Virus record (IMG/VR): IMGVR_UViG_3300031269_000089
Coordinates: 1 to 23,837 of that record
Length of the DNA: 23,837 nt
Direction: 5' to 3' (one strand)
DNA from: a virus
Below are positions 5,572 through 23,836 of the stretch, one piece after another (position 1 is the first letter of the stretch; the number at the start of each line of letters is the position of its first letter). Both the position numbers and the translations under genes were made by a program. The notes beneath the pieces are model-generated. The model had not been told where the DNA came from, made no database searches, and worked only from the letters and a program-made list of their open reading frames with translations.

Positions 5572-7168
5572 CCAACAGACCCGCATCTTCAAGAACAGCA
5601 AGAGCATTCAGCACCCGAGGATCAGCGAGGGAAGCTGTAGCTTCCTTCTCTTCCCGGTTTGCTTGGTGCTTCTTGTACAGGTGACGTGCGCCTGCGCCTG
5701 CAGCCAGAAGTCCACCGGCAGCTAGTGCGCCGCCTGCAATTCCTTTACCGTGGCGACCCATGAACGCTCCTGTGGCCTTTCGGGCATCACCGACTCGTTC
5801 TTGCATCGTACGACCTTGCTTACCAGCCTCTCCAATGCTTGGATCGGCCTTCAGTTTGGAAGCAATACCAGTCTGACCACGCTTGCCTTCCTTTTCCTTG
5901 TCGGGTATGCTTCTAACTGAGCGACGGAGCTTCTTGTCCTTTTCGGTCAATTTAGGCTTCTTTCCAGCTTTAGGCTGCTTCTGCTTAGGGTTTCTCTTCG
6001 TCTTCCCATCTTCACCTTTCTGTTTCAGCTTAGGATTGTACTTAGCGTTAGCAGCAGCTCTTTCTGCATCCGAGTACCCCGACACATTAGTTTCCATATT
6101 TTCAGCAGCAATTTTATCAAGAACAAACTCGATAATATCTGTCTCGTACGCATCGGAAAGATCGTACTCAGCATATACCTCTGAGGCCACCTTTAAGAAC
6201 TCATGACACATTGACTCGACACCAAGTGTGAAGTCCATGTCTCCTTCGGAAGCATACTTATCAAGAGGAGCTTCAAGCGTGTTTTGAACGACAGCAAAGA
6301 CGTCGTCAATACTAGCCCCTTCCCAAGACATATCTGAGATCTGATTAAAAGCAGCCTCTTTTCCCATCAGAAGATCTTCGTTTTGATAAGCATCAACTGC
6401 ATACTGATCAAAGCCCGCAAGCTTCTCAAATACAGCCAGAAGAATCTCACCTTCAGTAGAATCGGAAGTATCGTACGTTCCGTAAATATCACCTGCGGTC
6501 TTAACTAGACCGTGGCACATTGTTTCAATGCCAAGTCTAAAGTCTGACTCCTCTTCAGAAGCATACTTATCAATATCTTGATTAACCGTGATATCAACAA
6601 TCTCTAAAATTTCTGCAACGGAAGCGCCATTGTCGGCGTATCCTAGAAGCTCGTCGAATGCAGCCTCTTTACCAAATTCAAATGCACTCATTTGATTAAT
6701 CTCCATAATGTTGTTTGGACCATTCCAAGCAATTTTAACTAAATCATGTTCTGATTCTAACACATGTTCTGAAGCTGCCAAAAAACCTGCAGCCTCTAAA
6801 GTGCTTTCCTCTTCCAGACTAAGTTGGGCTTCCTTACAAAACTCTTGAAGAGAAGCTCCTTTTTTGTTAGCGTCATAGGCCTCTTTTAAAAAAGAGTACC
6901 AACCCAAAGTGTAAGGATCGGCTTGAGCAATGTCTTGCATCGCTTCTTTTTGACCTAAAACAAAAGGGTCGACACCATCACCAAGATCAAGCAAAGACGC
7001 TTGCTTAGCCGTATCTTCCCACCCACTCTGGAAGAAACCTTCCAGAAAGTTTGTCCAGACGGAGTTGTAGCCCGCCTGCTTAATTGTCTCCACCTCATCA
7101 CCGGGCATTTCTTTTAGCCGGACGTGAACTAGAGATTCTGTATCATCGAAAATATTTTTATAGCTCAT
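5564..7168 (-). CDS. Repeat-containing internal head protein candidate
   Basis: A 534-residue protein with an acidic helical N-terminal part (1-360) and a basic lysine-rich part (375-470). A glycine/alanine-zipper segment (474-495) follows, then LYKK and a charged tail. Two copies of a unit of about 95 residues lie at 155-252 and 262-354. Each contains GKEAAF, GAS, DKYASE, DF-x-LG-[IV]-E-[TS]-MCH and a final K-[LI]-A. A partial third copy lies near 85-115. Fifteen of the first 18 lysines are in K-x-A. The gene starts within the stop of the protease gene (ATGA). I infer an internal head or core protein processed by the neighbouring protease. The glycine zipper could make it an ejected, membrane-interacting protein. 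Function is unknown. Confidence 0.7.
   Translation of the reverse strand: MSYKNIFDDTESLVHVRLKEMPGDEVETIKQAGYNSVWTNFLEGFFQSGWEDTAKQASLLDLGDGVDPFVLGQKEAMQDIAQADPYTLGWYSFLKEAYDANKKGASLQEFCKEAQLSLEEESTLEAAGFLAASEHVLESEHDLVKIAWNGPNNIMEINQMSAFEFGKEAAFDELLGYADNGASVAEILEIVDITVNQDIDKYASEEESDFRLGIETMCHGLVKTAGDIYGTYDTSDSTEGEILLAVFEKLAGFDQYAVDAYQNEDLLMGKEAAFNQISDMSWEGASIDDVFAVVQNTLEAPLDKYASEGDMDFTLGVESMCHEFLKVASEVYAEYDLSDAYETDIIEFVLDKIAAENMETNVSGYSDAERAAANAKYNPKLKQKGEDGKTKRNPKQKQPKAGKKPKLTEKDKKLRRSVRSIPDKEKEGKRGQTGIASKLKADPSIGEAGKQGRTMQERVGDARKATGAFMGRHGKGIAGGALAAGGLLAAGAGARHLYKKHQANREEKEATASLADPRVLNALAVLEDAGLLDD
6107..6706 (-). repeat. Two tandem units of about 95 residues in the 534-residue protein
   Basis: Residues 155-252 and 262-354 align over their length. 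Anchors common to both, in order, are GKEAAF, a GAS turn, a hydrophobic helix, DKYASE, DFxLGxE-x-MCH, an Asp/Ser-rich turn, and a helix ending in K-x-A. The copies have diverged at many other positions, so the duplication is old. Confidence 0.8.
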
Positions 7169-8262
7169 CTTAGGAAAACTCTTGAAAACTCGCCAATGGA
7201 GTGTCTGTATTGAAGATAAGCGTACTTCTCATGCTCTGTCAAAAAATTAGCGGGAGTTAATTTAGCACCCTCTTTTACTGGCGTGCCATAAATACCACCA
7301 ATAGCATTGGCTAGCTTATATAACGGTCGGCCCTGTATTCCAGTTCTTTCAGTCATTCTGTAATCAACATACGGAATGATGTCTGGTCTTATAAGGCTTG
7401 CGTCTTTCTGCATAATCGCTTGGAACTCATCAGGTCTGAGAACTCCGACCGCCTCGTGGATTGTTTGTAGAGCCTCACCTCTAGACAAATCATTGGTGGC
7501 CGATATTACTTCTGGCCTGAGTACTGAACGACCCTCTGCGACATTTCCTCCAACATCCTCTTTCTTGATATCAGCCAGCTTGCTAATATTGTTTTGAAGC
7601 GATGCGACTTTTCTTAAAACTGTAGATGCTGGATCTGCGGCAATAACCACGATTGATATATCTACAAATCTTGGTTTTGGATTTTTAGCATAAACCTGTC
7701 TGCCGTCCGACAGAACCTTTAGCATCATCCCCCGAAGGTGATTGCAGTACGACATTCTCGTATTTGCCTGATTGCCACAAATAGAGCACACATCATGCTT
7801 AACCTTTGCGCCCATACTGGTGGAAATCATTCCTCCAGAAGCGAACTTTTTAAGGTCTGCTGCTATCTTCTCTCTAGGAGCGCGCACAATAAGATCGACA
7901 ACGTCCATGGGGTCGTTATACGCCGACGCCATAACATCACCGATGGCGTTTCTAGGATCTTTGTTTTGGTGGTGTCTAAAGAGGTGGGCGTGCTTCTCAA
8001 AGCTTTCGTGGTGAGCCTTTAGTTCATCTCGACCAAACCAGTCCCCATTGTTATTTGGGCCATAGACCTCACCTGCACCCAAAGCTCTATCATACAAGTA
8101 TGCATAGTTTGGGTCAGGGTTTCGCTCGATATCTTGTATGAGATGGGCGAGCTTCTCGGGAACGTGGGTGTCCAGTCTGGCTAATTTATTGAGACCGTTT
8201 GAGGAGATATCAATGAAGCCAGTTTCTGTGTCACCAAATGAGTCGAAATTCTTGTAAATCAT
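7165..8262 (-). CDS. Prohead maturation protease (serine protease-like)
   Basis: A 365-residue protein that probably cleaves scaffold and capsid proteins inside the prohead. Residues 65-155 match the layout of phage prohead proteases of the herpesvirus-assemblin type. They contain NNGDWFGRDEL, a helix with HLFRHHQN (candidate catalytic H97 or H98), a strand IGDVMASAY, and GGMISTSMGAKV with candidate nucleophile S147 or S149. Directly after it, C159-x2-C162 and C173-x-H175 form a probable zinc site. The long C-terminal part (200-365) contains several K-x-A motifs (RKVAS, SKLAD, QKDAS, YKLAN) and may be a self-cleaved region. The start shares a base with the stop of the previous gene (TAATG). 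It lies upstream of scaffold and capsid candidates, as expected. Confidence 0.75.
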   Translation of the reverse strand: MIYKNFDSFGDTETGFIDISSNGLNKLARLDTHVPEKLAHLIQDIERNPDPNYAYLYDRALGAGEVYGPNNNGDWFGRDELKAHHESFEKHAHLFRHHQNKDPRNAIGDVMASAYNDPMDVVDLIVRAPREKIAADLKKFASGGMISTSMGAKVKHDVCSICGNQANTRMSYCNHLRGMMLKVLSDGRQVYAKNPKPRFVDISIVVIAADPASTVLRKVASLQNNISKLADIKKEDVGGNVAEGRSVLRPEVISATNDLSRGEALQTIHEAVGVLRPDEFQAIMQKDASLIRPDIIPYVDYRMTERTGIQGRPLYKLANAIGGIYGTPVKEGAKLTPANFLTEHEKYAYLQYRHSIGEFSRVFLR

Positions 8263-10358: not shown

Positions 10359-11327
10359 ATGTCGATCCATCAAGATATACCAGCATTGAATATTCAGATC
10401 CATTTATGCACCGTAGAACGAGTTCATAAGTCGGGTCTCATTGACGCCAGAAGTGACAGAGATAGATTCTTTGAACAGATTAACACAACATACTTTGGAG
10501 CTGAAGGTAATTATGTAACAGGTAGTAGATGTATTGTTGTAACGGATGGTAGCCAATACTTATCACTAGGCCAAATAAACGAGCCCGCACAAGGTGATGA
10601 TGGGACTACTACGATTAAGAATCTCAGAAACGATCTGGCAGAACTTGTAAATGCCAGATCTCTCGTTTCTGTTAACAGTATGGGCATGCAGGCTAAGGTT
10701 GTGGTGTCTCCTGGAGCCGGAGTCGTGCTGGATAGTGGAGACAATGCAATTGTTCATCTCGATCCAGGAAATGCTAAAATAAACGAAATTGCAGATAGAA
10801 AGGAAACAATCACCGTTCCCTTCTTTGCCGATCATGACCATGATGGCGTGGTCGCTCAATCTGAATACAAGTGGAGGACGTTGGCTGATAATCTATCTTG
10901 GGATCGAGATGTAAAAAGAGAGCGCGATGACTCCCTAGATCTAGGTGCGGTATTGACCGCAAAGATAGGCCCGTCACCAAACGTTCTAAATATTGAACAC
11001 AAGTTTAGCGGCGCATTACTCTCCAGTATTGAAATAGGACAGCTAGGTAACATTACGATTAAAGGATCTTCATCTACGGTAGAAGTGTCTCCAATTGGTG
11101 TAAATATTACAACTGGGTCTGGACCTCTTACCGGCCAAATAACTGTTGACTCCGCAGGTAGGCTAAAGTTGGGAAGTAACTCCATAGATCTGCTAGATAC
11201 GATCAGCGACGTTATTCAAGAAATCGAAAATGCACAAGTTGTAACCCTTTTGGGTCCTCAACCTATTATTACGGCACCTCTATTTACTTTGCTTAGAACA
11301 GTTCAGCTAGCTTTAATAAAAGGGTAA
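10359..11327 (+). CDS. Baseplate spike-like protein (OB-fold plus beta-helix candidate)
   Basis: A 322-residue protein. Residues 10-75 form a small beta-barrel-like domain (VERVHKSGLIDARSD, then a strand ending in LGQINEPA), similar in plan to the OB fold of gp5/gpV-type spike proteins. Residues 220-275 are short repeated strands (GNITIKGSSSTVEVSPIGVN, GQITVDSAGRLKLGS), as in a spike beta-helix. The C-terminus has SIDLLDTISDVIQEIENAQ followed by LGPQPIITAP, a tail I associate with baseplate spike proteins of Mu/P2-like phages. Residues 158-169 form a canonical DxDxDG calcium loop. The ATG has only a weak AGG upstream. The role is inferred from fold-like patterns. Confidence 0.5.
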   Translation: MSIHQDIPALNIQIHLCTVERVHKSGLIDARSDRDRFFEQINTTYFGAEGNYVTGSRCIVVTDGSQYLSLGQINEPAQGDDGTTTIKNLRNDLAELVNARSLVSVNSMGMQAKVVVSPGAGVVLDSGDNAIVHLDPGNAKINEIADRKETITVPFFADHDHDGVVAQSEYKWRTLADNLSWDRDVKRERDDSLDLGAVLTAKIGPSPNVLNIEHKFSGALLSSIEIGQLGNITIKGSSSTVEVSPIGVNITTGSGPLTGQITVDSAGRLKLGSNSIDLLDTISDVIQEIENAQVVTLLGPQPIITAPLFTLLRTVQLALIKG

Positions 11328-11389
11328 ATTAGGATAGTTTTCCATCTTGTAATAGAATCTGAATGTGTGAACTCCAATAGGTATAAAAC

Positions 11390-13408
11390 ATGTACAAAAT
11401 AAAAAGAAAGAGCCTGACAAAAATCGCGGGAACGAATATCCCTGAAGATCAGAAGCTTTGGCCAGCCGAAGTGTTGAAGGGTCTTGTGAGCGAGCACCCG
11501 TATATTGACACCGGTAGAATCAAAATCAAGTTTACGAGAATTGAACCGGAAACGAAAACCACAATGGGTAAGATCATTGTAGGTGACGCTGCTGCAATTC
11601 CATTCTCAATCAGAACGAACGATAAGACAAAGAAGTTAGAGCTAGATCCTCTTGACATATTGTATGATGGAGAAAGCTTTCAGCACCTCAATGAAGAGTC
11701 CTTGAGAAGGACTATTGATAGACAGCAGGTGGGAAGACTCGTCAAAAAAGAGGACTCTGTACCACCAAGTAACAGATATATTGGTGATATAACAGGTGAC
11801 GTTACCCCTCTAGAGTGGTCGGCATACCCAAGCGGTTTTGCCGGACCTAGAAGTACGTCTGCCGGTCAGGGTCTGCTTTCATATGTCATCAAAAATCAAG
11901 ATGACGTCAGCAAGCTCTTTAACTTGCTCAATACATACGATGGCATCAACTCGTCTGTAGAGGCAATGGGTCTTAGAGATTCTCTAGAAAATCTTCGTGA
12001 CGGCATGGCCGAGAAGATCCCAACGAAGAGGCTTGCTCATATTATGAAGCGCCCAGAGGGCGGTTTTGCTGTTGCCTTCGATGGTGGCGATACACGGGCC
12101 GTTCGCGCCAAAGAGCTAAAGGTTATGCTGGGTGGTGACTTCCATCCTGTTATGCGTCATGTGATGCAACGGGGTTGGGCAATGATTAGAGACTTTCCTA
12201 CAATAAGAAGCGTTGATAGTGGAGCCTTAGCTGTCGTACCTACCCCAATTGAGTCTGGAGGTAGGTATCTTATTCAGGGTATGGATGGCAAAAAAATGCT
12301 CGCTCTTGTATGCGACCAAATGATCGACTTTGACGGTTCGGTCTTGAAGGTACAAAAGGCTATTTGCGAAGGCTCGCAGTGCTACGCAGAAGGCAAGGCT
12401 ATTCAGGGTTGGAGAGTGCCAAAGAAAATCCCTAGAGCTTTTGACGAATATAAGAGGCAGGGTGCCCTGGTTGTCACTAAAGATTATCCACTTTCATCTT
12501 GTGACACATCATTTCCCATAGGTGTTATCGACACAGGTGTTGAGGGATGTTTTATTGACGAGTCTTGGGGGACCCCAAAAGCAACCCCCTCATTTAAGAT
12601 TGAGAAGCTAATCTGCACTCCGAACGATCCAGATATTATGATCGCCAGGAGAACCGACACTTTAGAAGAAATTGGTCTTGTTATTGTTCCAGCTCTGGTT
12701 CGACCTCAGAAGATACAAGCTCATCACTTTGATAAGAATCTCATGCCTAAGAATTCTTACTACATTCCTGACCATATGTCCTTCGTTGAGACCAACGGTA
12801 AGATGATGATCTCAGATAAACAGGCTATTGTAGAAGGTAGGCCGGAAGCTCTTCTTAGAAAAAATGCAGGTATGTATTATCTGTTCGGTGAAACGGAAGA
12901 CGGTAAGGTCCAGTACACCGACATGTCTCCAGACCAAGCTAGAACAAAGTTGGCATGGTTGGGTGCAACGGACGATGTTATCGAAAAGGCTATGGATATG
13001 AGCACCGGACAAGATATCACACTCGAAGGGCTAAAAGAGGTCGAAGACGTCTTAACAAAGGTCGCCTCCGAAGGTGTGCAGTTTGATCCAATCTGGATCG
13101 AAAGAATTAAGGTCGCTGCAGAAGATGCTATTCAGGGAATTGAAAAAGAGGAAGAGGCTAGAGATCCAAGAACTATTGACTCTATCCTAAGTCTTCAGTT
13201 TGTGAGTCAAGAGAACCTGGAAGATCTGGTTGAGTCTCAGGAGATATTCCAAGAGGCTGAAGATAGACTTGCTCGTCTACTACTGGCCGCCCGCCAAGGA
13301 GAGAAGTCTATTCATGAGCGAGGTGTACAAAGAGCCCTTAAGGGTATTGGTGATGCAAGAAAAAGTCTTAAGACGCTTGAAATAGAACTCGAATCTAGAA
13401 ACAGATGA
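11390..13408 (+). CDS. Large probable virion structural protein, unknown family
   Basis: A 672-residue protein. AGG lies about 8 bases before the ATG in a 62-base gap. The N-terminus MYKIKRKSLTKIAG carries a basic stretch and a K-x-A motif, like the short leaders of neighbouring genes. Residues 45-110 contain strands (GKIIVGDAAAIPFSIR, then LDPLDILYDG). The middle (200-500) is long and mixed alpha/beta. The C-terminal 150 residues are helical and highly charged (LTKVASEG, RIKVAAED, a final coiled coil). It shows no enzyme motif, and no portal signature was found although its place near the terminase would suit a portal. A structural role is likely; the exact part is unknown. Confidence 0.6.
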   Translation: MYKIKRKSLTKIAGTNIPEDQKLWPAEVLKGLVSEHPYIDTGRIKIKFTRIEPETKTTMGKIIVGDAAAIPFSIRTNDKTKKLELDPLDILYDGESFQHLNEESLRRTIDRQQVGRLVKKEDSVPPSNRYIGDITGDVTPLEWSAYPSGFAGPRSTSAGQGLLSYVIKNQDDVSKLFNLLNTYDGINSSVEAMGLRDSLENLRDGMAEKIPTKRLAHIMKRPEGGFAVAFDGGDTRAVRAKELKVMLGGDFHPVMRHVMQRGWAMIRDFPTIRSVDSGALAVVPTPIESGGRYLIQGMDGKKMLALVCDQMIDFDGSVLKVQKAICEGSQCYAEGKAIQGWRVPKKIPRAFDEYKRQGALVVTKDYPLSSCDTSFPIGVIDTGVEGCFIDESWGTPKATPSFKIEKLICTPNDPDIMIARRTDTLEEIGLVIVPALVRPQKIQAHHFDKNLMPKNSYYIPDHMSFVETNGKMMISDKQAIVEGRPEALLRKNAGMYYLFGETEDGKVQYTDMSPDQARTKLAWLGATDDVIEKAMDMSTGQDITLEGLKEVEDVLTKVASEGVQFDPIWIERIKVAAEDAIQGIEKEEEARDPRTIDSILSLQFVSQENLEDLVESQEIFQEAEDRLARLLLAARQGEKSIHERGVQRALKGIGDARKSLKTLEIELESRNR

Positions 13409-13623
13409 GAGTATTGATCAAGATTGCTGAAGCTTATGCAGGAGGGGCGAGTGGATCTGGAAGTGGCGGAACTGGTGATTCTGGGGGCGGTGCTCACAGT
13501 GGGTCTAAATCCAGCACGAACGACGTATCTCATGCTGGAAGAAACGGTCCTTTCTACTCTCTCACACTTAAGATGTGTCCTCCGGGACAAGTGAGACGTA
13601 AGGGAAAATGCGTCAAAAAATAA
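13405..13623 (+). CDS. Small Gly/Ser-rich protein with MRVLIKIA leader
   Basis: A 72-residue protein whose start overlaps the stop of the large gene before it (ATGA), so it is probably translated by coupling. It begins MRVLIKIAEAYAGG, closely like the MKxLMKIA leaders of other genes here. Residues 13-45 are nearly all Gly, Ser, Thr and Ala. The C-terminus MCPPGQVRRKGKCVKK is basic, with two cysteines that could pair. There is no recognisable function. The shared leader and operon position argue that it is real and not a chance frame. Confidence 0.55.
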   Translation: MRVLIKIAEAYAGGASGSGSGGTGDSGGGAHSGSKSSTNDVSHAGRNGPFYSLTLKMCPPGQVRRKGKCVKK

Positions 13624-13710
13624 CAGATGTAGTACGTTCATTCTGAAAAAAGCAAAATCTTTGATAGTATATATTGGAGAACTACACATACATCTAACAA
13701 GATCGCCAAA
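13624..13710 (+). promoter_or_regulatory. Intergenic gap with possible promoter, weak evidence
   Basis: An AT-rich 87-base gap, the longest in the window. It holds TTGATAGTATATATTGGAG near 13661-13679, which could contain a -10-like TATATT, but no convincing -35 at normal spacing. The start ATG at 13711 has no good ribosome binding site: the GGAG at 13676-13679 is about 30 bases away. AGATGTA (13625-13631) and TACATCT (13689-13695) could pair but are far apart. Confidence 0.2.
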
Positions 13711-14466
13711 ATGAATCAAGCCCTCATAGAAAGAGTACCGAGAGTCCCGCACTGGCGCTGGGTGATGCATTGTGGCAAGTCGCACGATGATTACAACGAG
13801 CCGTTTGCTCAACTTCAAAGATACGTAGATGAGGAAGAGATTGACTTGAGTCTTAGTGCTTTAGTTGAACCTACACCCGATGTAAAAAGGGCTATATCGA
13901 TATACCTAACCGAGCCTCCGATTCGAGAAACAATCGAATCAATGCTCTACGAAAGGTGTTCTAAAAAACTAATCTCAGACGCTCTCTTTCATAAGTATAA
14001 AGAGGCTATTTCTGAGAATGTTGTTCGTCAGTACTCAAAGTATTTTTATGATACTGAGATAATGAACAACTATGAAATGGCCAAGTACTTCGAGAGGTCT
14101 GGTCAGAAAATACCTAAAGCCCCTCCTGTGCCAGGGCATATGAAAGAGGGTTACATTGCCTTTAAGAATGGGGTTGAGACGAAGCTCGACCCACAGCAAG
14201 CTATGATGCATATGTTCCAAACATCATTCTTCAGGGCACAAGAGTTGTCTGAGTATGGCTGGGTGGCAGATGACAAGATTATTAAATTTCAAAAAAGCGC
14301 AATGGATATACTTAAGACCATGCGTGAAGGAGAGATGGATCAACCAATACCGGAAGAGTTTATCTACGAAGTAGAGTATCCCTCAGAGACCTCCATAGAT
14401 GTGTCTGAACTCGATGATTATGACCCAGAAGATGACCCTAACGAAGAGGACTTAGAAGATGTCTGA
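13711..14466 (+). CDS. Acidic-tailed protein beside terminase, possible small terminase
   Basis: A 251-residue protein. Residues 55-125 are helical, with ERCSKKLISDALFHKYKEAI and then ENVVRQYSKYFYDTEIMNNY, a pattern compatible with a helix-turn-helix or helical DNA-binding domain. The last 30 residues are extremely acidic (SELDDYDPEDDPNEEDLEDV). Small terminase subunits often have an N-terminal DNA-binding part and an acidic tail, and the gene lies next to the large terminase gene, though on the opposite strand. This makes small terminase a possibility only. The start has no good ribosome binding site, so an alternative start was considered, but none in frame is better. Confidence 0.4.
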   Translation: MNQALIERVPRVPHWRWVMHCGKSHDDYNEPFAQLQRYVDEEEIDLSLSALVEPTPDVKRAISIYLTEPPIRETIESMLYERCSKKLISDALFHKYKEAISENVVRQYSKYFYDTEIMNNYEMAKYFERSGQKIPKAPPVPGHMKEGYIAFKNGVETKLDPQQAMMHMFQTSFFRAQELSEYGWVADDKIIKFQKSAMDILKTMREGEMDQPIPEEFIYEVEYPSETSIDVSELDDYDPEDDPNEEDLEDV

Positions 14467-14731
14467 TGACGTAAATATCCCAGCTCTACCTAACAGCAAC
14501 AAGTCAGGCGATAGCACTGAAGCTCCATTCGAGAGAGAAGGTGAACTGGATCACACGCTAGATGTGGATTTGGGTGACGGCACTTTCGGTGAAACGAGGA
14601 GAGCGATCGCAGGCCTAACTGGTGACTGGAAGCCCGGTAAGGTACACCTTGATGTAGATTGGGACGATCCCAATACCTACGATGAAGATTGGGGTGGTGG
14701 CTGGGACGATGCTATAATCTACGACGACTAA
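14459..14731 (+). CDS. Small, strongly acidic protein, unknown
   Basis: A 90-residue protein that starts inside the end of the previous gene (8-base overlap), with AGAGGA about ten bases upstream. It is rich in Asp and Glu throughout, with DVDWDDPNTYDEDWGGGWDD near the end. No domain was recognised. Its stop codon overlaps the stop codon of the convergent terminase gene. The composition would suit a DNA mimic or a partner of a basic protein, but nothing in the sequence proves it. Confidence 0.5.
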   Translation: MSDDVNIPALPNSNKSGDSTEAPFEREGELDHTLDVDLGDGTFGETRRAIAGLTGDWKPGKVHLDVDWDDPNTYDEDWGGGWDDAIIYDD

Positions 14732-16287
14732 AAACCTGAAGCGAAATACGCTTTAGCGATAACCTCTGCGTAAGCGCAGGCGTGAAACATGTCGTCCATG
14801 CCAGCCCTGTCGTATCTAAAGGTACCATCTCTCTCATTAATTTCTTTTCTGACATTTGTGAAATGTTCTGAGAAGGGGGCAAGATCTTTCCATTGAGGAA
14901 ACAAAAGCTTCCTCTGGTGCATCTTCCGTATAAACGTAGCAAGGGCGTTAGTCTTATTTAAAGTGAGTCTGGGTATAAGTTGCCCTGCAGTAACCCAGCT
15001 GGCATCTTTTGAGGTGGCTGAGTTAGACCAGTAGTTAGATGTAACAAGGCCATCTCTTCCCGTCTTGGCAAGCTCTTCCTCTAGTCGGTCGTTAAGACCA
15101 AAACCTCCACCATGATCGCCGTGTACGCGAGCGCACTGAAATCTATTGATTATACGCACCATATCTGGGATGCAAAACTTAGGCGAGCACTGCTTACCTT
15201 CATACTTCTTTAGGTAGACGTACCTAAACTTACCAACTGACTGATCCATTTGACCGATGGCTAGAGTGGTTGAGAATTGGCCGTGACCCCAATCTATCCC
15301 GGCGAAATTATAGTAATTCATTGTTTTGGGGCGAGGATCATCAGACATAACAAAGTCAGGATCGCAAATCTTTTTAAGAACAGCCTCATTGATTGGAACC
15401 TCAGCCGTATCGGCTGATTCTCCAAGCACCTCATTAAGAAACAAAGATCTGTCCGTATCTTCGAACTTATCTAAGATTTCTTCCCATTTGTGAGGCAGGC
15501 TATGGGAGATTTTGCAGTGAAGCTGATTTACATGGAATCCGGCAATCTTGGCACCTGGATTATGTTTTACCCAAAGACCATCATCTACATCTAGTAGATT
15601 TCCACAGTGATGGCATATCGGACCAAGCTTTCCAATACTCTTGATTCCTAACCTGATGTACTTAACCGGTGAGTGGTGATGACATCTTACCAACCACTCT
15701 CTCTGATCGGACATTCTCCATTTTTTTTCAACGGGGTTAACAAGAGACTTTGGAGTGCCTGTGTAAAGACTGATTCCATGTTCAGACGTGAACATGACCT
15801 CTCTAATTACAGGCTCTGTTACCGCCAAGTCCTGATCCTGGATCTCATCGTAGTGAACCATGTCAGCAGTAATACCACGACACGAATCCGGGTTGTGCTT
15901 AGCATACTTGAGGTATATCTTTCCCATGCCTCCACTTGGTCTAACAAAACCTCGCTCGAACACGTTCTCCGGCCAACCCTTGTGGAGATTGATAATGGGA
16001 GATTCCTCAATTATAGGCTTGAGCTTATCGTGAGAATACTTCCTTGTTTGGTCCTGCTCGGGCGCGACGTAAAGTATGTAGAAGTTGTCAATGAGACATT
16101 GCCTTGCACACGCTTCAGCTGCACCACCCGTTGACTTCCCCACCTGCCTGGACATCTTCCAAACTCTTTTTCTTGCAGGTGTGTCAAAGAGGGCTGGCAC
16201 CCAAGCTCTCCCTTTGAAACTAAAACGCTTACCCTTCTTTACATAAACAGAGTTAGCGATCCAGTTGGATAGTGTATTTCTAATCAT
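14728..16287 (-). CDS. terL: Terminase large subunit
   Basis: A 519-residue DNA-packaging motor protein with an N-terminal ATPase and a C-terminal nuclease that cuts phage DNA. Walker A is SRQVGKST (46-53) and Walker B is MVHYDE (143-148), with D147 and catalytic E148. The coupling motif is TGT (176-178). Between the domains a zinc-ribbon-like insert has C202-x2-H205 and C225-x2-C228. The RNase-H-type nuclease acidic residues are D332 (AGIDWG), D391 (HGDHGG) and D498/D499 (MDDMFHA). The length is normal for the family. The start overlaps the stop of the preceding gene (ATGA). It is the last gene of the polymerase operon and ends against a convergent gene with overlapping stop codons. Confidence 0.95.
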   Translation of the reverse strand: MIRNTLSNWIANSVYVKKGKRFSFKGRAWVPALFDTPARKRVWKMSRQVGKSTGGAAEACARQCLIDNFYILYVAPEQDQTRKYSHDKLKPIIEESPIINLHKGWPENVFERGFVRPSGGMGKIYLKYAKHNPDSCRGITADMVHYDEIQDQDLAVTEPVIREVMFTSEHGISLYTGTPKSLVNPVEKKWRMSDQREWLVRCHHHSPVKYIRLGIKSIGKLGPICHHCGNLLDVDDGLWVKHNPGAKIAGFHVNQLHCKISHSLPHKWEEILDKFEDTDRSLFLNEVLGESADTAEVPINEAVLKKICDPDFVMSDDPRPKTMNYYNFAGIDWGHGQFSTTLAIGQMDQSVGKFRYVYLKKYEGKQCSPKFCIPDMVRIINRFQCARVHGDHGGGFGLNDRLEEELAKTGRDGLVTSNYWSNSATSKDASWVTAGQLIPRLTLNKTNALATFIRKMHQRKLLFPQWKDLAPFSEHFTNVRKEINERDGTFRYDRAGMDDMFHACAYAEVIAKAYFASGF

Positions 16288-16550
16288 CGATTTTTACTCA
16301 TACTGGGCATACTCGTTCGTACGCTCGGCATCTTTACTTGAGGTACAACTTTCTTGTGGGCTGTTGGCATATCTGTAGGTGCCTTATTAGCACTCATTAT
16401 TTGCGCTATAGGTCTTGGAGACCCGACGTCTGGCGGCAAAGAAGATTCAGATACTGAAGACGGCAGCTTGTTCTTAGACATAGAAGAGGTGTTTGTCTTC
16501 TTCTGATCGAACTTATTCTTTTCTTCTGCAATCTTCATCAAAATTTTCAT
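16284..16550 (-). CDS. Small low-complexity protein with MKILMKIA leader
   Basis: An 88-residue protein, with ATGA overlaps at both ends and GAGAG just before the start. It opens MKILMKIAEEKNKF, almost identical to the leader of the basic repeat protein at 1657-2427. The rest is Ser/Pro/Met/Lys-rich and probably disordered (SVSESSLPPDVGSPRP, MPSVRTSMPSMSKNR). No domain was recognised. The shared leader suggests a common fate with the other leader-bearing proteins, possibly packaging into the head followed by processing. That is inference. Confidence 0.55.
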   Translation of the reverse strand: MKILMKIAEEKNKFDQKKTNTSSMSKNKLPSSVSESSLPPDVGSPRPIAQIMSANKAPTDMPTAHKKVVPQVKMPSVRTSMPSMSKNR

Positions 16551-17116
16551 AGCGCTCTCAGAGTAGACCTACTTTCAGTTGAGTCAACCTTTTGTTCGGG
16601 ATCATAATCCGCATCAGAACTTTTCATAGAGGTGTGCTTAGGAAGTCTCGGTTGTGCTCTATTCGCGCCACCGGAGGAGCTGGGTGCGGTAATAAATTGG
16701 TAACCTCCAGCAGCAGTTCCTATTCTTTTCTTTTTGCGGTGTACACCTGAACGCGTCTTCCTTCGTCTAATTTTAGCCTTTCTTGATATTTCAGCCTTGT
16801 TTTGCATGCGGTACATGCGCGCTTTAGTTCGCTCAGATTGTGTGCTAATTCTTGCGTTTTTTTCCATCTGACCCAACAAGGATAATAGGTGAGCCACTTT
16901 AAGCTCTCCACCAAAGGCTGCGTCCAAGGCTTCGTTTGAGAAATCAATTTCTGACTCTTCTTCGATGTCTTGGTAAAAAAAGATTTCATCATCCTCAGTC
17001 TGCCAGTCCAAATCTGCAAGCTGTTCTTCTGGGAGAGGATACGTCTCTGTGTACTCGGCGATTTTTTCCAAGATCGGGTCATCCATCCACTCCATATGGT
17101 AGTTGCTTGCCTTCAT
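16547..17116 (-). CDS. Two-charge-domain protein (acidic N-terminus, basic C-terminus), unknown
   Basis: A 189-residue protein. Residues 8-66 are acidic (about a third Asp and Glu). Residues 67-90 are a helix with K-x-A motifs (ELKVAHLL, MEKNARI). Residues 95-131 are strongly basic (MQNKAEISRKAKIRRRK, VHRKKKRIG), ending in TAAGGYQFI. The tail is Ser-rich. The ATG at 17116 follows the previous stop by one base and has AGGA upstream. A basic stretch of this kind could bind DNA or RNA or face packaged DNA. It lies between the RNA polymerase and terminase genes. No known family is claimed. Confidence 0.6.
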   Translation of the reverse strand: MKASNYHMEWMDDPILEKIAEYTETYPLPEEQLADLDWQTEDDEIFFYQDIEEESEIDFSNEALDAAFGGELKVAHLLSLLGQMEKNARISTQSERTKARMYRMQNKAEISRKAKIRRRKTRSGVHRKKKRIGTAAGGYQFITAPSSSGGANRAQPRLPKHTSMKSSDADYDPEQKVDSTESRSTLRAL

Positions 17117-17117
17117 C

Positions 17118-17726
17118 TTATCCTAACCCTAGAGCATTTTGGGCTGCACTTTCAGACTTATTTGGTCTCAACCCTTCAAGCTCTTTAGCATCCCTTCTTT
17201 CTTTTAGCTTGTCTTTACCTTTGAGTGCCTTATGGTACAAACCCGTCAGACCTCCAGGCTCTGGCAGTTTCTCTTTCGGCGCGAAGTGGGACTCGTAGCC
17301 AAGGGCATCGTTCATTGCCCCTTTAGAGCCCATTCTTTTTGCAGCTCTTCCCGGACTTCCTAGAATAGACTTGCCTGCATTAGCTACAGCGCGCGCGCCT
17401 CTACCCGCTCCACTAAGACCACGCTTGATGCCACCGGTTACACCTTTGAGGGTCTTTTTTACATTCTGCGCAGCCCGTCTGTTTTGGGATGTACCCGCAC
17501 CGTACCAGGCCGCCTCTTTCTCTAGATACTCAGCCCGTTCTGCAAGTTTGGCTGTCCAACCGTCACCGCCAAACTTTTTAGGGCCACCGTTCTCTCTAGC
17601 CAAAGCCTCATTTTCAGCCTCTAGCCACGCCATAGCCTTGTCTGTTTTGATGTAATCTAAGCCAAACGGGGCATCGCCCATTTCCTTAAAACGATCTACA
17701 TATGCCACTTTCATCATCGCTTTCAT
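17118..17726 (-). CDS. Basic protein with MKAMMKVA leader, unknown
   Basis: A 202-residue protein whose ATG overlaps the stop of the RNA polymerase gene (ATGA). The leader MKAMMKVAYVDRF resembles the MKxLMKIA starts elsewhere in the window. Residues 55-75 contain TAKLAERAEYLEKEAAWYG with two more K-x-A motifs. Residues 90-135 are basic and Gly/Ala-rich (GGIKRGLSGAGRGARAVANA). The C-terminus is charged and helical. No enzyme motif was seen. Tight coupling to the polymerase gene could mean a joint function, or simply a late virion protein in the same operon. Confidence 0.6.
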   Translation of the reverse strand: MKAMMKVAYVDRFKEMGDAPFGLDYIKTDKAMAWLEAENEALARENGGPKKFGGDGWTAKLAERAEYLEKEAAWYGAGTSQNRRAAQNVKKTLKGVTGGIKRGLSGAGRGARAVANAGKSILGSPGRAAKRMGSKGAMNDALGYESHFAPKEKLPEPGGLTGLYHKALKGKDKLKERRDAKELEGLRPNKSESAAQNALGLG

Positions 17727-20700
17727 TTTTGACCCGGTTTCTTAATTTTCGTGCCTGGACCTAAAGCGATAGAAGCGAAGTTGGAACCCGTTCTCTCTGA
17801 CTCAAAGCCCATACCTGCACCATCCTCTAGAGTTTGTTTAATTCTTCCTAATGCCATTCTTCTCATAAAGTCATCAGAAGCCTGCGGGGCATACAGTGAC
17901 CCCGGCAGTATGTTATTATACACAATCTGCTTTTTTGTTGGATTTTGTTTGTTCCAAGCAGTTACGGTACCCATAGTGCTGTAGTCTCCCGCAATCAAAC
18001 CTGGATGATCTCCAGGGTCTCTAATGCGCACCTGTTCGGTCAACATCTTGACTGGAACTTCATATGTTCTCTTGTGTAGATTAACGCCTGCAGATGCAAA
18101 TGTTTTGTGGAGATCGTTTCGCATCTGATCTTGTACGGACTCGACTCCTCTTAGCTTCATGAGTTCTTGAGGCTTGACGATGCCTTCAGATATCGCATCC
18201 CCCTTCTTCACTGTCTGACCTCTCTTAACCTCTACCTTCTTGCCTTTAGGTACGGTGTGGTCCTTGCCGGCAATGGTAACAATATTACCGCCGTACCCAG
18301 ACTTTCTAATACCTGTAACCAATCCAGACTTTTGGGCAAGGGTGGCTTTACCTCGAAGATTGTTTGGCATTCTAAAGATCTGCAAAGCTCTATCAAAAGC
18401 ATTCGCAAGCCCCTTATCTGCCGTAGCCACGCCTCCTGTGTGGAAAGACTTCATTGGCAGCTGTACAGATCTTTCGGTAATTGCTTGAATTTCACTAATG
18501 CCGACATTCTTGCCCACGTTCGGAAACTTACCAAATTCGTCAATACCAAAGCATTTTGAACAGATTCCAGACGGAGCTTCACATGTAAGTATGCTTCTTA
18601 CTTTTACTTTTGGAACTTTAGACTTCTGGAGTTTGCTCAAAACGGTGTCATCAATAGCAGATCCCATGGGGACTCCAGCATAAGCTTGCGCAAGAACTCT
18701 ATCTAAGAGATGCCTGTCAACATCCTCCATTCTACCATTCGTGGTGCCACAATCAGACATTGTGATCTTCTGAGTAGACGCAGAGTTTGTAAGCTCTTTG
18801 GAGAGCATTCCAGGTCCAGACACTGACTGAGATCTATCGATGATACCTTTTCTCTGAGCATACATGTGGCTGAAGAAGTCAGAACTAGAAAGACCTTCCG
18901 CGTAATTTCCCCTCACAGGCTCAGGCATGACATTTTGTCTATGATCAAGCATGAGGCCTAGCGTTCCCACCAACTGCTTGAGCTGATTTGGTCCAGGCTT
19001 AGACATACCAGAGTCCACCATGTCGGTCATATTGTTGCTGTTGCCAGAAGCGTTGTTCGGAAGCTTCATAGACATACCCATTATCTTAGAGTCAACCTTG
19101 GCGTATATATCAATAAGCTTCTTATCTCGCTCTTCTTTGGAAAGTTTTTTGTTTCTCCTGATTGCTGCAGCCTTGTTATCTGCGGCGCGGTACAGCTGCT
19201 TTCTTTCCTTAGTGAGCATCTTAAGGTCAGAGAGTAGGAAGCTCGTGCCAGACTCATACACATGAATCCTGCCCGCCTCCTTCCAGTCATTTATCACTCT
19301 CTTAAGAGCTTCCTTTCCTGCCTCTTTCTCAACTCTCTTGAGCATGTTTTGTTGCTCTTTTTCTGTCAGAGAGACTTGGTAATCTTTTAGCTTTGTTGGA
19401 ATTTTATCCATAGCTCTGATTTTACCGGCGGTTGTTCTACCAATAAGTCTTACTGAAACGATGTCATCCCATCTAATTTTTTTACTTCTAGCCTCCTTGA
19501 TAACCATCTCCGGTCGCATATAGTTCTTGGCTGTAGTGCGACCATTTCGAGTTAGCTTGAACATACCCATCATGTATTCTTTGCTTAGACCTACAGACAG
19601 ACGTTCTCGCTGGCGACCGGTTTGGTAAAGGTTGTTGGAGGGAAGCATCCTTAATGCTTCTTGTGTTGCCTCGGTTCCAACGGGTACGTGAATACCAAAA
19701 GTATCGCCATCGAAGTCAGCGTTAAAACCGCCAAGAACTTCAACCGGAAGTTTGACGGAGCTTCCAGCGATCAGCTTTGGCTTAAACGACATGAACGACC
19801 ATTTGTGTAGAGTTGGAGCTCTGTTGGCCATTACAACTTTAGAATCCATAACGTTTGTCAGGGCTCCCCTGGCAAACTTAGACTTAGCCTCTACCTCCTT
19901 TCTGGCATTCATAGAGGTCAGTCCTTGAGACTTTAGCTCTCTGATGACGAATGGCTTGAATACTTCCCAAGCCATCTTCTCAGGTATGCCGATGTGGTCC
20001 ATGTCAAGTTTTGGTTCCGGCCCAACGACTGCCGTTCCCGATACATCCTGACGCCTCTTAAGCAGCTTCGATTGATAGTACCCAGACTTTGGATTCGCCC
20101 CTGCGATAGTTTTTGCAAGACCTTTCACATCAGGCTTGTCAACAAGTCCCATAGATTGACCCATCGTGCCACGCATAGCTTCGTACAATTCCTTTCGAGT
20201 CTTGCTGGCCTCATCCTTTAAGCCCGGTCTGCTCTGAAATGTTTTCATCTGCTGATTCATTAGAATGGTGGCACGGTAGTGCTCATTCACATCAGCCACA
20301 GCTAAGTCTCCTGTAGGCAACTCGGTGATTGGTCGAAACTTAGGAGGGATGATTGGCATTTTGCTTACCACCATCTCTTCTAGCTTGATTTTATTGTCTT
20401 TGAAGTTCTTGAGAATCCTGGCTTCTCTATGTAGCTTATTGAGAACGCTGCCCTTCCTTTTGGGAGCCTCTGCCTCAATCTGCTTAATTCGAGCATTCAC
20501 ATCGACTTTCTTTAATAAGCTTTTTACAGCCTCTCCACCCTCAAGTGCGCCGGGAGCATCTGCCTTTACCAGCTTGCCATCCAGCACGCCCTTCTTGCCC
20601 GACATAATCGCATCAAGCTCGGACTTCTTGAGATGTGCTACAGAAAGTATCGACTTCTCAAAAGTCGGGTGAGGCATAGGCTCAGCGAGATCGACGTGAG

Positions 20701-23700
20701 ACCACTTGTCACCAATCAGACCACCCGTAGTTCTAAAGTCAAATAGACCCCCCTTTTCCTCTTTCAAGTCTTTTGCGCGGAGTGTTGTTGCGTCCTTAAT
20801 ACTTCCGTTCGAGACCTTTTTTACATCCCTATCTAGAAAGGGAACCATCTTGACCATGTTCTTTTCTTCAACAAGGTCGATACCCATCCCCCGCATCATG
20901 CCTACAAAGCGTTGGCTAGAGGCTGGCATATCTGGAGGAGGTAGCATTGTTCCGTTCTCGACAGCTCTCCATGCTTCAAGCTGCTTGTCACCTTTAAACG
21001 TATACATCTCGGCGAGGTTGGCATCCACTCCGTGAGAAAGTAAGGCATACATCTCACCCAGGCCCACAGCTCGCCCTGATTTACCGCCGCCTCGCGCCGG
21101 TTGTCCGCTTGTAGAGTAAGCGTGCTCAGCACCCGCGCCACGAGCTGAAAGTTTTTTATCAACCTGGTGCTCTAGCTTGAGGATGTATTGTTTTCCGTGA
21201 AGAACACCATCAATCTCTTGATCGCCGTCAATAAGTTTGCCGTGGTCCTTCAGATTTCTCTTCTTAAGTTCTTTTGTTATTTGGTTAGTATGGTCTCCAT
21301 CAAAAGGCTTTGCAATGAAAGGTTTCCCATCTTTTTCAGCAATGTGAGACGCTGTAGTCTCCATGATCTGACCAAGGTTCATTCTGCCGGGCACGCCACT
21401 AGGGTCAAGCAGAAGCTCCATAGGTTCGCCCTTCTCATTCTTGGGCATCTTTTTGTCTGGAAGGATTGTGGTAATCGTTCCCTTGTTACCGTAACGACCT
21501 ACAACCTTATCTCCGATCTTAGCCTTCTCCTCCGTTTTAATAACGACCATGATGTCTTTTTTGCGGAAGTGAACCTCAGCAACAGTACCCTCAGTATTCT
21601 TTTCCCATGTGGTAGAAGTATCTCTATAGTCTTGAGTTAAAAGGCGACTGATGTTTTGAAGCTGCTTTGAAAGCGTATCCTCCTCCACCTTCTTCATCTT
21701 TAGAACAATAGGATCTCCCTGCCTTACCTTGGAGCCTTTTTTGATAACACCATTATCACCAATCTTTTTAATCTGATCGCCATCAAAAATTGCAGGGAAG
21801 TAGGCTGCAAACTTTTTCTTATCAATCGTTTCATCATCTTGCAGGGGGACTGTTTTTTGGTAAGCGTGCATAGACGTGAGTTTTGTTGACCCCGTCTCAG
21901 ACACAACAACACCATCTTCGTGATTGTAGCCTTTGTAAGGAATATACGCCGTACGCATATTGATACCAAGAGCGAGAGTGCCATCTTTGGTATAATTAGT
22001 ATCACCGAGAGGTTCGCCCTTCTTGACCTTATCGCCAACCTTTACCTTAAGCTCTGTGTCGGTGTAGTTATTCTCATTCATCCAGAAATCATTAGGAATG
22101 CCTACAGTATACTCTTTCCCTTTGGAGTCTTTAATCTCTACTTCATCTTTTGAGACCTTCGAAACCGTACCGTCCACAGGGGATCTAGGTACGTTATTTC
22201 TGCCGACGATATCCTCGACAGTCCTGTTGTCTGACTCGCTAACTGCAGACTGAACTAGAGGGCTTTCTCTGTACTTAAGGGGCTTAGCTTGAGACTGCAT
22301 TTTGGCTGCAGTCATAACCCGAATGCCGTTGTTGTGGGACAAAAATGGCACACCCATGGTATTTACACCAAACATGTCTGTAGAGACACGCATCGCGTAT
22401 TGCACTTTGGAGGGTGATACTCTCTCCACCTCACCTTTGTGAACAACTTTCACCAACCCGTCATCGTCAGGCTTGAGCTTTTTAGACTTAAAATACTCAG
22501 GAAATGTAACGGTAGATGTATGAAACTTTCTGGGATCTAACTCGATAGACTTACCGCTCTTTACGTCATATACGGTGGTGACGAGATTCTTTCCCCTCTT
22601 CTTTACGCCAACGGCCAGGTGTAATGTAGTACCAATATTCTGACCCTCCGGCGTGTGCGCTGGGTCTACGAAACCCATGTGCGAAGGATCGATGGCTCTT
22701 ACATCTCGTGTAACAGCGTGGGTGGATTGAATGCCACCTTCACCCATTACTGTAAGCTCAGAGAATGTCGCCTCCTGATCCATAGGGTTGTTTTGTTTTG
22801 GTATTTTCGATAAGTTTGTTTGCGTAAAGGTCGATTCAAGCGGTTGTTGAAAAATATCTTTTTGGACGATTTCGGCGACTTTGTCATAACGCTTAATATT
22901 CCTCGATAGGTTTCTAGATATTCTGCTTCTGTATTGCCTTTGGTTCAGACGCTCAATGGCGAAGTCTGACAGGTCGTAAATCTGGTTGTGAATGAGAGAC
23001 TCTTTATTGTCTTCTTCTGACTCACCTCTTGACACTTCAAGTATCTTCATGGTTACAGCTACAAGCAGTTTCACGCTCGTACTTTCAAACTTTTGACCGA
23101 GCGTTAGCTGAACGTTCTCACCGTCATAGGAAGACTTTTCTTTGAAGTAGTCGATGATCCACTGTCTATATCCAGCAACGTTTTTCTTTGTTACTTCCGG
23201 ATCACCTGCATAATGAAGTTTTGTGTACAGTTTTTTCAAGGCAGCAAGGGGGTCCTGAGCGCCTCTTGCTTTCATGTTTGTTTCATAAACCTCCTTGCCC
23301 CAAGCCTTCCTCATTTGCTCCTTACTTACACCCAGCCCAATAAAAAGCGCATGCAGGTTAACAAGGGAGTTCTCTACCTCCAATACAAAGTCACCCCCCT
23401 TACGAAGGCTGATGCTTAGGTTTCTACCCTTCGATGAGTTGAGCCAAGCGGAAATCTTCCCATCATCATGCTCTCTTGTGTATACGCCAGGGATAAGTCT
23501 TTTCTGTAGAGGAAACGAGTACTCATTTCCGCCCACAATGTATGTTCCTCTCATTGTCACTTGAGGCACATCCATGACTTTAATGGTCGACCTATTGAGA
23601 ACCTTACCGCCCTCTACAAGCTCAAGGGTGGCCTTTACCGGATAGGTGTACGAAGCTCCGTTTATCTTGGCCTTCTTTTGACTCTTTAGATCGTCGACGC

Positions 23701-23836
23701 GATTATTGGAGGGAATGTCGATAGAAACAACACGCAACTCTCTATCACCAGAAGTTACGCTCAACATTTCTGCAAGCGAAGACTTAAGATTTCTTAGCAA
23801 TTGATCGTGTGTCTCATGTGCAATTTGAAAACTCAT
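17723..23836 (-). CDS. Fused RNA polymerase beta-beta' subunit
   Basis: A 2,037-residue chain containing both large subunits of a bacterial-type RNA polymerase. In the beta part (about 1-1005), 88-104 match the protrusion (MRGTYIVGG) and 341-402 the rifampicin region and fork (DPSHMGF, HTPEGQNIG). GDK and NKG carry lysines 777 and 785 (E. coli K1065 and K1073 equivalents). The beta' part starts near 1008 with GSIKDATTL. Clamp helices lie about 1107-1160, catalytic NADFDGD is 1372-1378, and the bridge helix is about 1652-1685. A zinc site uses C1696, C1752, C1759 and C1762. The trigger loop has M1795 and H1799, and the conserved C-terminal RGVESV is at 1896. The beta' N-terminal zinc ribbon and SI3 are absent. 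The start ATG is one base from the window edge, so an upstream start cannot be excluded. No alpha, omega or sigma gene is in the window. It is the first visible gene of the operon leading to the terminase. Confidence 0.96.
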   Translation of the reverse strand: MSFQIAHETHDQLLRNLKSSLAEMLSVTSGDRELRVVSIDIPSNNRVDDLKSQKKAKINGASYTYPVKATLELVEGGKVLNRSTIKVMDVPQVTMRGTYIVGGNEYSFPLQKRLIPGVYTREHDDGKISAWLNSSKGRNLSISLRKGGDFVLEVENSLVNLHALFIGLGVSKEQMRKAWGKEVYETNMKARGAQDPLAALKKLYTKLHYAGDPEVTKKNVAGYRQWIIDYFKEKSSYDGENVQLTLGQKFESTSVKLLVAVTMKILEVSRGESEEDNKESLIHNQIYDLSDFAIERLNQRQYRSRISRNLSRNIKRYDKVAEIVQKDIFQQPLESTFTQTNLSKIPKQNNPMDQEATFSELTVMGEGGIQSTHAVTRDVRAIDPSHMGFVDPAHTPEGQNIGTTLHLAVGVKKRGKNLVTTVYDVKSGKSIELDPRKFHTSTVTFPEYFKSKKLKPDDDGLVKVVHKGEVERVSPSKVQYAMRVSTDMFGVNTMGVPFLSHNNGIRVMTAAKMQSQAKPLKYRESPLVQSAVSESDNRTVEDIVGRNNVPRSPVDGTVSKVSKDEVEIKDSKGKEYTVGIPNDFWMNENNYTDTELKVKVGDKVKKGEPLGDTNYTKDGTLALGINMRTAYIPYKGYNHEDGVVVSETGSTKLTSMHAYQKTVPLQDDETIDKKKFAAYFPAIFDGDQIKKIGDNGVIKKGSKVRQGDPIVLKMKKVEEDTLSKQLQNISRLLTQDYRDTSTTWEKNTEGTVAEVHFRKKDIMVVIKTEEKAKIGDKVVGRYGNKGTITTILPDKKMPKNEKGEPMELLLDPSGVPGRMNLGQIMETTASHIAEKDGKPFIAKPFDGDHTNQITKELKKRNLKDHGKLIDGDQEIDGVLHGKQYILKLEHQVDKKLSARGAGAEHAYSTSGQPARGGGKSGRAVGLGEMYALLSHGVDANLAEMYTFKGDKQLEAWRAVENGTMLPPPDMPASSQRFVGMMRGMGIDLVEEKNMVKMVPFLDRDVKKVSNGSIKDATTLRAKDLKEEKGGLFDFRTTGGLIGDKWSHVDLAEPMPHPTFEKSILSVAHLKKSELDAIMSGKKGVLDGKLVKADAPGALEGGEAVKSLLKKVDVNARIKQIEAEAPKRKGSVLNKLHREARILKNFKDNKIKLEEMVVSKMPIIPPKFRPITELPTGDLAVADVNEHYRATILMNQQMKTFQSRPGLKDEASKTRKELYEAMRGTMGQSMGLVDKPDVKGLAKTIAGANPKSGYYQSKLLKRRQDVSGTAVVGPEPKLDMDHIGIPEKMAWEVFKPFVIRELKSQGLTSMNARKEVEAKSKFARGALTNVMDSKVVMANRAPTLHKWSFMSFKPKLIAGSSVKLPVEVLGGFNADFDGDTFGIHVPVGTEATQEALRMLPSNNLYQTGRQRERLSVGLSKEYMMGMFKLTRNGRTTAKNYMRPEMVIKEARSKKIRWDDIVSVRLIGRTTAGKIRAMDKIPTKLKDYQVSLTEKEQQNMLKRVEKEAGKEALKRVINDWKEAGRIHVYESGTSFLLSDLKMLTKERKQLYRAADNKAAAIRRNKKLSKEERDKKLIDIYAKVDSKIMGMSMKLPNNASGNSNNMTDMVDSGMSKPGPNQLKQLVGTLGLMLDHRQNVMPEPVRGNYAEGLSSSDFFSHMYAQRKGIIDRSQSVSGPGMLSKELTNSASTQKITMSDCGTTNGRMEDVDRHLLDRVLAQAYAGVPMGSAIDDTVLSKLQKSKVPKVKVRSILTCEAPSGICSKCFGIDEFGKFPNVGKNVGISEIQAITERSVQLPMKSFHTGGVATADKGLANAFDRALQIFRMPNNLRGKATLAQKSGLVTGIRKSGYGGNIVTIAGKDHTVPKGKKVEVKRGQTVKKGDAISEGIVKPQELMKLRGVESVQDQMRNDLHKTFASAGVNLHKRTYEVPVKMLTEQVRIRDPGDHPGLIAGDYSTMGTVTAWNKQNPTKKQIVYNNILPGSLYAPQASDDFMRRMALGRIKQTLEDGAGMGFESERTGSNFASIALGPGTKIKKPGQK

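Follow-up and report, generated by a model that had tools for sequence, protein, structure and literature searches.

Does a bacteriophage carry a bacterial-type RNA polymerase (RNAP) whose β and β′ subunits are a single polypeptide, and if so, what would such an enzyme be for? The question is raised by an IMG/VR virus record of 23,837 bp with no larger assembly behind it, which we analyzed over its full length and refer to as the window. A first-pass annotation made from the sequence alone had described a 2,037-residue chain that joins β to β′ without a linker, and the reading frame, the domain matches and an alignment to the E. coli subunits all agree with that description. The gene (17723–23836, minus strand) is an ATG-to-stop frame with no internal stop across its 2,037 codons for amino acids, supported by domain and structure-sequence matches. 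Its β part comprises aa 1–990 (20867–23836, minus strand), where the end of E. coli RpoB aligns to aa 990 and a PDB β match spans aa 74–989; its β′ part comprises aa 991–2037 (17726–20866, minus strand; boundary at ~991), as judged from the alignment to E. coli RpoC and a PDB β′ match over aa 1100–2018. The Pfam and NCBIfam domains follow in the order Rpb2_3 through Rpb2_6, then Rpb1_1, Rpb1_2, Rpb1_4 and Rpb1_5, with E-values of 1e-52 for Rpb2_6, 3e-137 for rpoC_TIGR and 3e-101 for the rpoB model NF001616. Ordered domains with matches of this strength exclude a chance frame, and that reading was rejected. The observation of a one-chain β-β′ in the window is confirmed.

When the chain is aligned to E. 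coli RpoB-RpoC, β ends at aa 990 and β′ residue 20 falls at aa 995, close to the join near residue 1008 that had first been proposed; the chain lacks the final few residues of β and the first ~18 of β′ and has no linker. In an AlphaFold2 model, which covers aa 560–1460 only (40 sequences, mean pLDDT 84), the junction (20840–20881, minus strand) consists of two strands, aa 986–991 and 994–999, with a two-residue gap and no linker between them (pLDDT about 83–92 there). The modelled strands probably form a tight hairpin; strand pairing was not measured. Modelling of this kind had been suggested as a check on the first annotation, and Foldseek matches the modelled segment to bacterial RNAP chains (E about 3e-31, probability 1.00). 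Only 1 nt separates the start codon from the contig end, which leaves upstream signals outside the record. Because the chains of relatives begin at the same residue, the window chain is probably complete, and an artefact of the contig end was rejected as the cause of its start.

Relatives were sought in IMG/VR, a database search that had likewise been proposed. Scanned as a single sequence, the window protein gave no matches there; profile scans did recover relatives, and yielded a large set of them from phages. A profile of the window, Vibrio phage D69 and Salmonella phage Arash returned 56 loci in a complete listing, and from the 384 relatives matched by a profile of the close group the best 80 were taken. 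The second scan is biased towards fusions; the first is not, since its patterns lie away from the junction. In form A, the RNAP is one chain of about 2,000–2,200 aa, carried as a near-complete single ORF by at least 75 loci on contigs of up to about 200 kb. Form B, that of Arash and D69, joins β to the first half of β′ (about 1,525 aa) and leaves a separate β′ C-part (about 609 aa). In form C, the β gene carries the first ~100 aa of β′ as its tail, including the β′ N-terminal module (GGLFDxxxTGG...), and two more β′ genes follow; a tail of this kind is expected if a fused ancestor was cut. About 50 loci, among the matches listed, have the gene cut elsewhere, inside β or β′. The junction itself is uncut in all 127 phage loci that cover it among the matches listed (126 by ORF, and L110 with TGA read as Trp), and because E. 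coli comes out cut at 988/990 in the same test, the test was able to fail. The window is an ordinary member of a large phage clade, with an architecture common among uncultured phages; we know of no cultured one-chain member.

Some relatives have irregular RNAP frames of their own. Where TGA codons interrupt the RNAP frame, the sister sequence has Trp, at four of four sites in L110:9900-15910 (IMGVR_UViG_3300025602_000002, 205,518 bp) and at the one site in L111:9959-16021 (IMGVR_UViG_3300024261_000050). Reading these splits as fissions was rejected for that reason; TGA appears to code for Trp in both phages, and with this reading each RNAP is a single chain of about 2,020 aa. A same-frame TGA also splits the RNAP of L108:9935-16219, at a variable position that is not Trp, and may be a cut, a sequencing error or a read-through site. 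In L144:9926-18946, the RNAP frame reaches 3,006 aa and its active centre carries two large intein-like inserts, one directly after NADFDGD and the other in the trigger loop past the catalytic His (ending THN before T). Vibrio phage D181 (L004:5890-13872) has an extra cut in β near window aa 500–510, where a homing endonuclease gene separates the parts; D69 is uncut there.

A tree was computed in IQ-TREE under LG+C20+F+G4 from 45 rows and 1,958 columns, with 15 bacteria of many phyla and no archaeal rows. Support was 100/100 for bacteria and 100/100 for the phage clade of fused and split forms, including Arash and D69, on a branch of 0.81. Inside that clade, the window's group (L069, L008, L006, L007 and L051) received 100/100 and forms B and C together 100/99; the separate-subunit phage enzymes (YerA41, Carin-5 and Rhizobium phage) lie outside. 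A scan with the Rhizobium phage β′ as query found no relatives and so did not bring up a separate-subunit mReC sister group. The simplest history is a single fusion in the stem of the clade, followed by later cuts, with the deepest forks within the clade unresolved.

The same tree bears on whether the gene is instead a host rpoB-rpoC locus, or the contig is contaminated with bacterial sequence, as the strong bacterial similarity might suggest. Placement inside a host rpoB/rpoC pair had been named in advance as the outcome that would overturn the phage assignment, and it did not occur: the clade and the 15 bacteria are split at 100/100. Terminase and capsid genes of phage type lie in the same window, as does a probable prohead protease gene, in keeping with the phage origin first claimed, and ribosomal-protein neighbours are absent. 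Cultured phages, moreover, hold an orthologue, and a scan of a prokaryote genome collection with the clade patterns returned no relative and no prophage or host link. A bacterial chromosome was rejected as the source on the basis of the tree and the neighbouring genes, and we regard a host or contaminant origin as extremely improbable.

As far as sequence can tell, the two-barrel active site of the window chain is intact; that it is active is an inference. No catalytic residue that was checked is missing. The β residues R506, E640, D641, K777 and K785 are kept (E. coli R678, E813, D814, K1065 and K1073), and the two active-site lysines (21482–21508, minus strand) are invariant in 60 of 60 aligned clade members. 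R1339, D1374, D1376 and D1378 are kept in β′, where the metal-binding motif NADFDGD stands at aa 1372–1378 (19703–19723, minus strand); it recurs in 71 of 72 complete one-chain members, the other having NADLDGD. By alignment, the bridge-helix region lies at about aa 1655–1690 (18767–18874, minus strand) and the trigger loop at 18392–18484 (minus strand) with Q1792, M1795 and H1799 kept, its Q and H being invariant in every aligned clade member that covers the site. For these landmarks, the claim that bacterial features run along the whole length holds; it fails at the β′ N-terminal zinc-binding domain, which is missing. At the four cysteines of that domain, 60 of 60 clade members have gaps, whereas 31 of 32 bacteria and 3 of 3 other phage enzymes have the residues. 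The second zinc site, C1696/C1752/C1759/C1762, is placed by alignment at 18551–18751 (minus strand), and in one-chain members C1696, C1752 and C1759 are each found in 38 of 40 and C1762 in 37 of 40. Loss of the zinc-binding domain with the second zinc site kept is, judged from these alignments, a mark of the clade. The clamp helices (20162–20293, minus strand, by alignment) are the sigma-binding coiled coil in bacteria, where the arginines R275, R278 and R297 contact sigma. E. coli R275, R278, R281 and R297 are not kept in the window, and the three kept by bacteria (R275, R278 and R297) are replaced there.

Cellular RNAPs need α to bring β and β′ together. No α (PF01193) was found in searches of 20 and 24 phage records (one shared, 43 distinct), with a control that matched in 13 of 14 genomes; 38 of the 43 records are contigs longer than 75 kb or complete phage genomes, the search was confined to one family, and completeness is unproven. 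Among phages with split forms, all 14 long contigs or genomes searched had sigma70 region 2 over the cut-off, as had 4 of 24 records that are mostly one-chain; region 4 passed it in 6 of 27, including a 159-aa frame on the contig of the close relative L069; most one-chain contigs had no match to the Pfam sigma models. One β and one β′ catalytic-barrel locus were found per record in all 25 tested, Arash and D69 included. We infer that the covalent join may replace the scaffold role of the α dimer, and that promoters would be picked by a phage sigma or another phage factor. How phage enzymes hold together without α has been stated to be unknown (PMC7598289). Instead of standing alone, the fused chain could assemble with host α, and perhaps ω or sigma, into a hybrid enzyme like bacterial RpoBC fusions: β and β′ are bacterial-like throughout, by E-value no NCBIfam model matches better than that of the Helicobacter-type fusion, and a phage α was not found in the records searched. 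However, phiKZ-type phage enzymes function without α (PMC7598289), and the join itself provides the link, with the proviso that α-contact residues were not compared; we think a hybrid quite unlikely.

The genes around the RNAP place it among those for the head and packaging. The start of a 202-aa protein of no family (17118–17726) overlaps the RNAP stop by 4 nt, and a 189-aa protein (16547–17116), an 88-aa frame from the ORF list that lies between RNAP and TerL (16284–16550), and the 519-aa terminase large subunit TerL (14728–16287) complete the run, all on the minus strand. TerL matches phrog_675 (E=4e-58), PF05876 and PF03237, the last at 24.5 bits against a cut-off of 22 and below PF05876. 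Three of the four joints from RNAP to TerL are 4-nt overlaps and one is a 1-nt gap, which bears out the operon shared with the terminase that had been described; its late expression is only inferred, from the position in the cluster. In L010:10004-16597, the RNAP frame of 2,197 aa reaches into a homologue of the 189-aa neighbour, fused at its C-terminus, and overlaps TerL by 4 nt. Further along the window lie a probable prohead protease or structural protein (7165–8262, minus strand; phrog_18299, E=9e-5; 47–49% identity to D69 and Arash genes) and the major capsid protein (3518–4471, minus strand; phrog_2522, E=1e-6), which has homologues in split-form phages and no Pfam match. Plus-strand genes of unassigned function (322, 672 and 251 aa, and smaller ones) occupy 10359–14731 inside this minus-strand structural cluster, and the three largest stay together on the opposite strand in close relatives as well. 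Scanning the window for Rfam families and tRNAs gave nothing. Directly upstream of the RNAP, relatives have a portal gene (profile against the Arash/D69 portal, hhalign probability 100, E 5e-64), and capsid and protease genes lie downstream of it in the window and D69; the RNAP thus sits inside a portal-terminase cluster.

That location is best read together with the virion proteome of Arash, whose Gp206 is a fused β-β′N of the window's clade. Gp206 was the most-detected protein in Arash virions, with 100% coverage, 128 unique peptides and 3,516 spectra, compared with 1,333 for the major capsid protein, 1,210 for Gp216 (the β′ C-part) and 467 for the sigma factor Gp10 (PMC10585845). The figure is 2.6 times that of the capsid protein, which is not a copy ratio because spectral counts scale with protein length. 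The earlier suggestion that the enzyme may be packaged gains strength from these data. Together with the portal-adjacent location, they make a virion polymerase the best-supported reading, to which we give moderate confidence: the one-chain RNAP would be made together with the structural proteins and then packaged, and it would enter the cell with the DNA and transcribe early phage genes. The fusion, the active site, the clade-wide junction, the single enzyme per relative genome and the portal-terminase location are read directly from sequence, and co-production, packaging and early transcription are inferred for the window phage. The evidence from Arash comes from a cousin with the split form, about 29% identical, and there are no virion, expression or activity data for the window phage or any one-chain member.

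A place in a structural-gene operon with the terminase would also suit an enzyme made during infection for middle or late phage genes, its presence in virion preparations being carry-over, and many relatives encode sigma factors. Arash virion preparations also hold ribonucleotide reductase and other soluble enzymes, and their authors note that enzymes may persist there through being made in large amounts (PMC10585845). Full coverage and an excess of spectra over capsid speak against carry-over of Gp206, with the reservation on copy number given above, as does the presence of a single such enzyme per genome, and we hold this alternative to be rather unlikely. The reading we prefer, taken as a whole, has further points against it: most one-chain contigs have no detected sigma, the clamp-helix arginines are not kept, and recruitment of host α is possible. 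Only tentatively, as something possible but short of probable, do we extend it to a widespread and largely uncultured group of large tailed phages with a one-chain, α-free, sigma-programmable RNAP as a major virion component, fused once in the stem and, in some branches, later re-cut within β or β′.

How does this enzyme compare with known systems? The fused RpoBC models NF007172 and NF011417, which we take to be those of Helicobacter and Wolbachia, also join β and β′ in one chain. They differ from the window chain in being of bacterial chromosomes and longer (2,890 and 2,839 positions), as had been claimed of bacterial fusions; the window chain branches apart from bacteria, and its 470 and 426 bits do not meet their cut-offs of 5,372 and 4,632. 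The phiKZ/AR9 type shares with the window chain two barrels, kinship with cellular RNAP and, as far as the one-family search shows, the lack of α, and one version is found in virions (PMC7598289). The contrast already drawn with that type stands: its enzymes are four or five separate, highly diverged polypeptides (PMC7598289), usually two enzymes per phage and without a sigma70-type factor, whereas the window RNAP is one chain and 25 relatives have one enzyme per genome, the window being a fragment. CrAss-like, YonO and P23-45 enzymes hold both catalytic barrels in a single chain, that of P23-45 being a virion RNAP fused to the tape measure (PMC10770324), but are very diverged; crAss RNAP has no detectable similarity to cellular β/β′ profiles (PMC7481178), whereas the window chain aligns with bacterial subunits across almost all of their length.

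Closer are the mReC Caudovirales RNAPs (Weinheimer & Aylward 2020, PMC7481178), in which, as in the window, cellular profiles recognise β and β′, the motif is NADxDGD and the source is IMG/VR; the mReC branch lies apart from cells. The mReC profile criterion (score at least 80, length at least 800 aa) is met by proxy, with TIGR02386 at 459 bits and NF001616 at 340 bits instead of COG0085/0086, and the terminase criterion PF03237 is met at 24.5 bits. On the criterion of a deep branch apart from Bacteria and from Archaea/Eukarya, the window chain is separate from Bacteria in a tree without archaeal rows; the capsid family PF07068 was found in 0 of 24 long contigs, with no positive control. mReC and the window clade are likely to overlap, although this could not be demonstrated, and that paper mentions a β-β′ fusion for crAssphage only (PMC7481178). 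We found no literature description of a phage β-β′ fusion of this kind, a weak absence given that subscription journals were mostly uncovered, and the portions searched of jumbo-phage reviews of 2020 and 2026 contain no mention of one. The family is known in pieces, through the probable mReC overlap and the deposited Arash and Vibrio phages, with the fusion itself undescribed in the literature found. A compact natural β-β′ fusion in dozens of phages, alignable to bacterial sequences residue by residue, makes the α question directly testable with one expressed gene and can serve as a marker in the phylogeny of a large phage lineage; an α-free one-chain enzyme, if true, would give a minimal, "monomeric" RNA polymerase of cellular type that occurs in nature.

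The closest described enzymes are those of Arash (Gp206 and Gp216; OQ632216, PMC10585845) and Vibrio phages D69, D148 and D181, which share with the window the clade, the uncut junction, the missing β′ zinc-binding domain and the adjacent portal; Arash and D69, which were tested for it, have a single enzyme per genome together with a sigma gene. Unlike the window, all four have β′ cut after the catalytic barrel with the C-part as its own gene, and AADYDGD in place of NADFDGD, at about 29% identity. Enzymes of this type were published as "β" and "β′" with the fusion unmentioned, Gp206 as "subunit β" (PMC10585845). The comparison with the window corrects that reading of Gp206 and suggests that a virion polymerase of bacterial type is open to study in a cultured phage.
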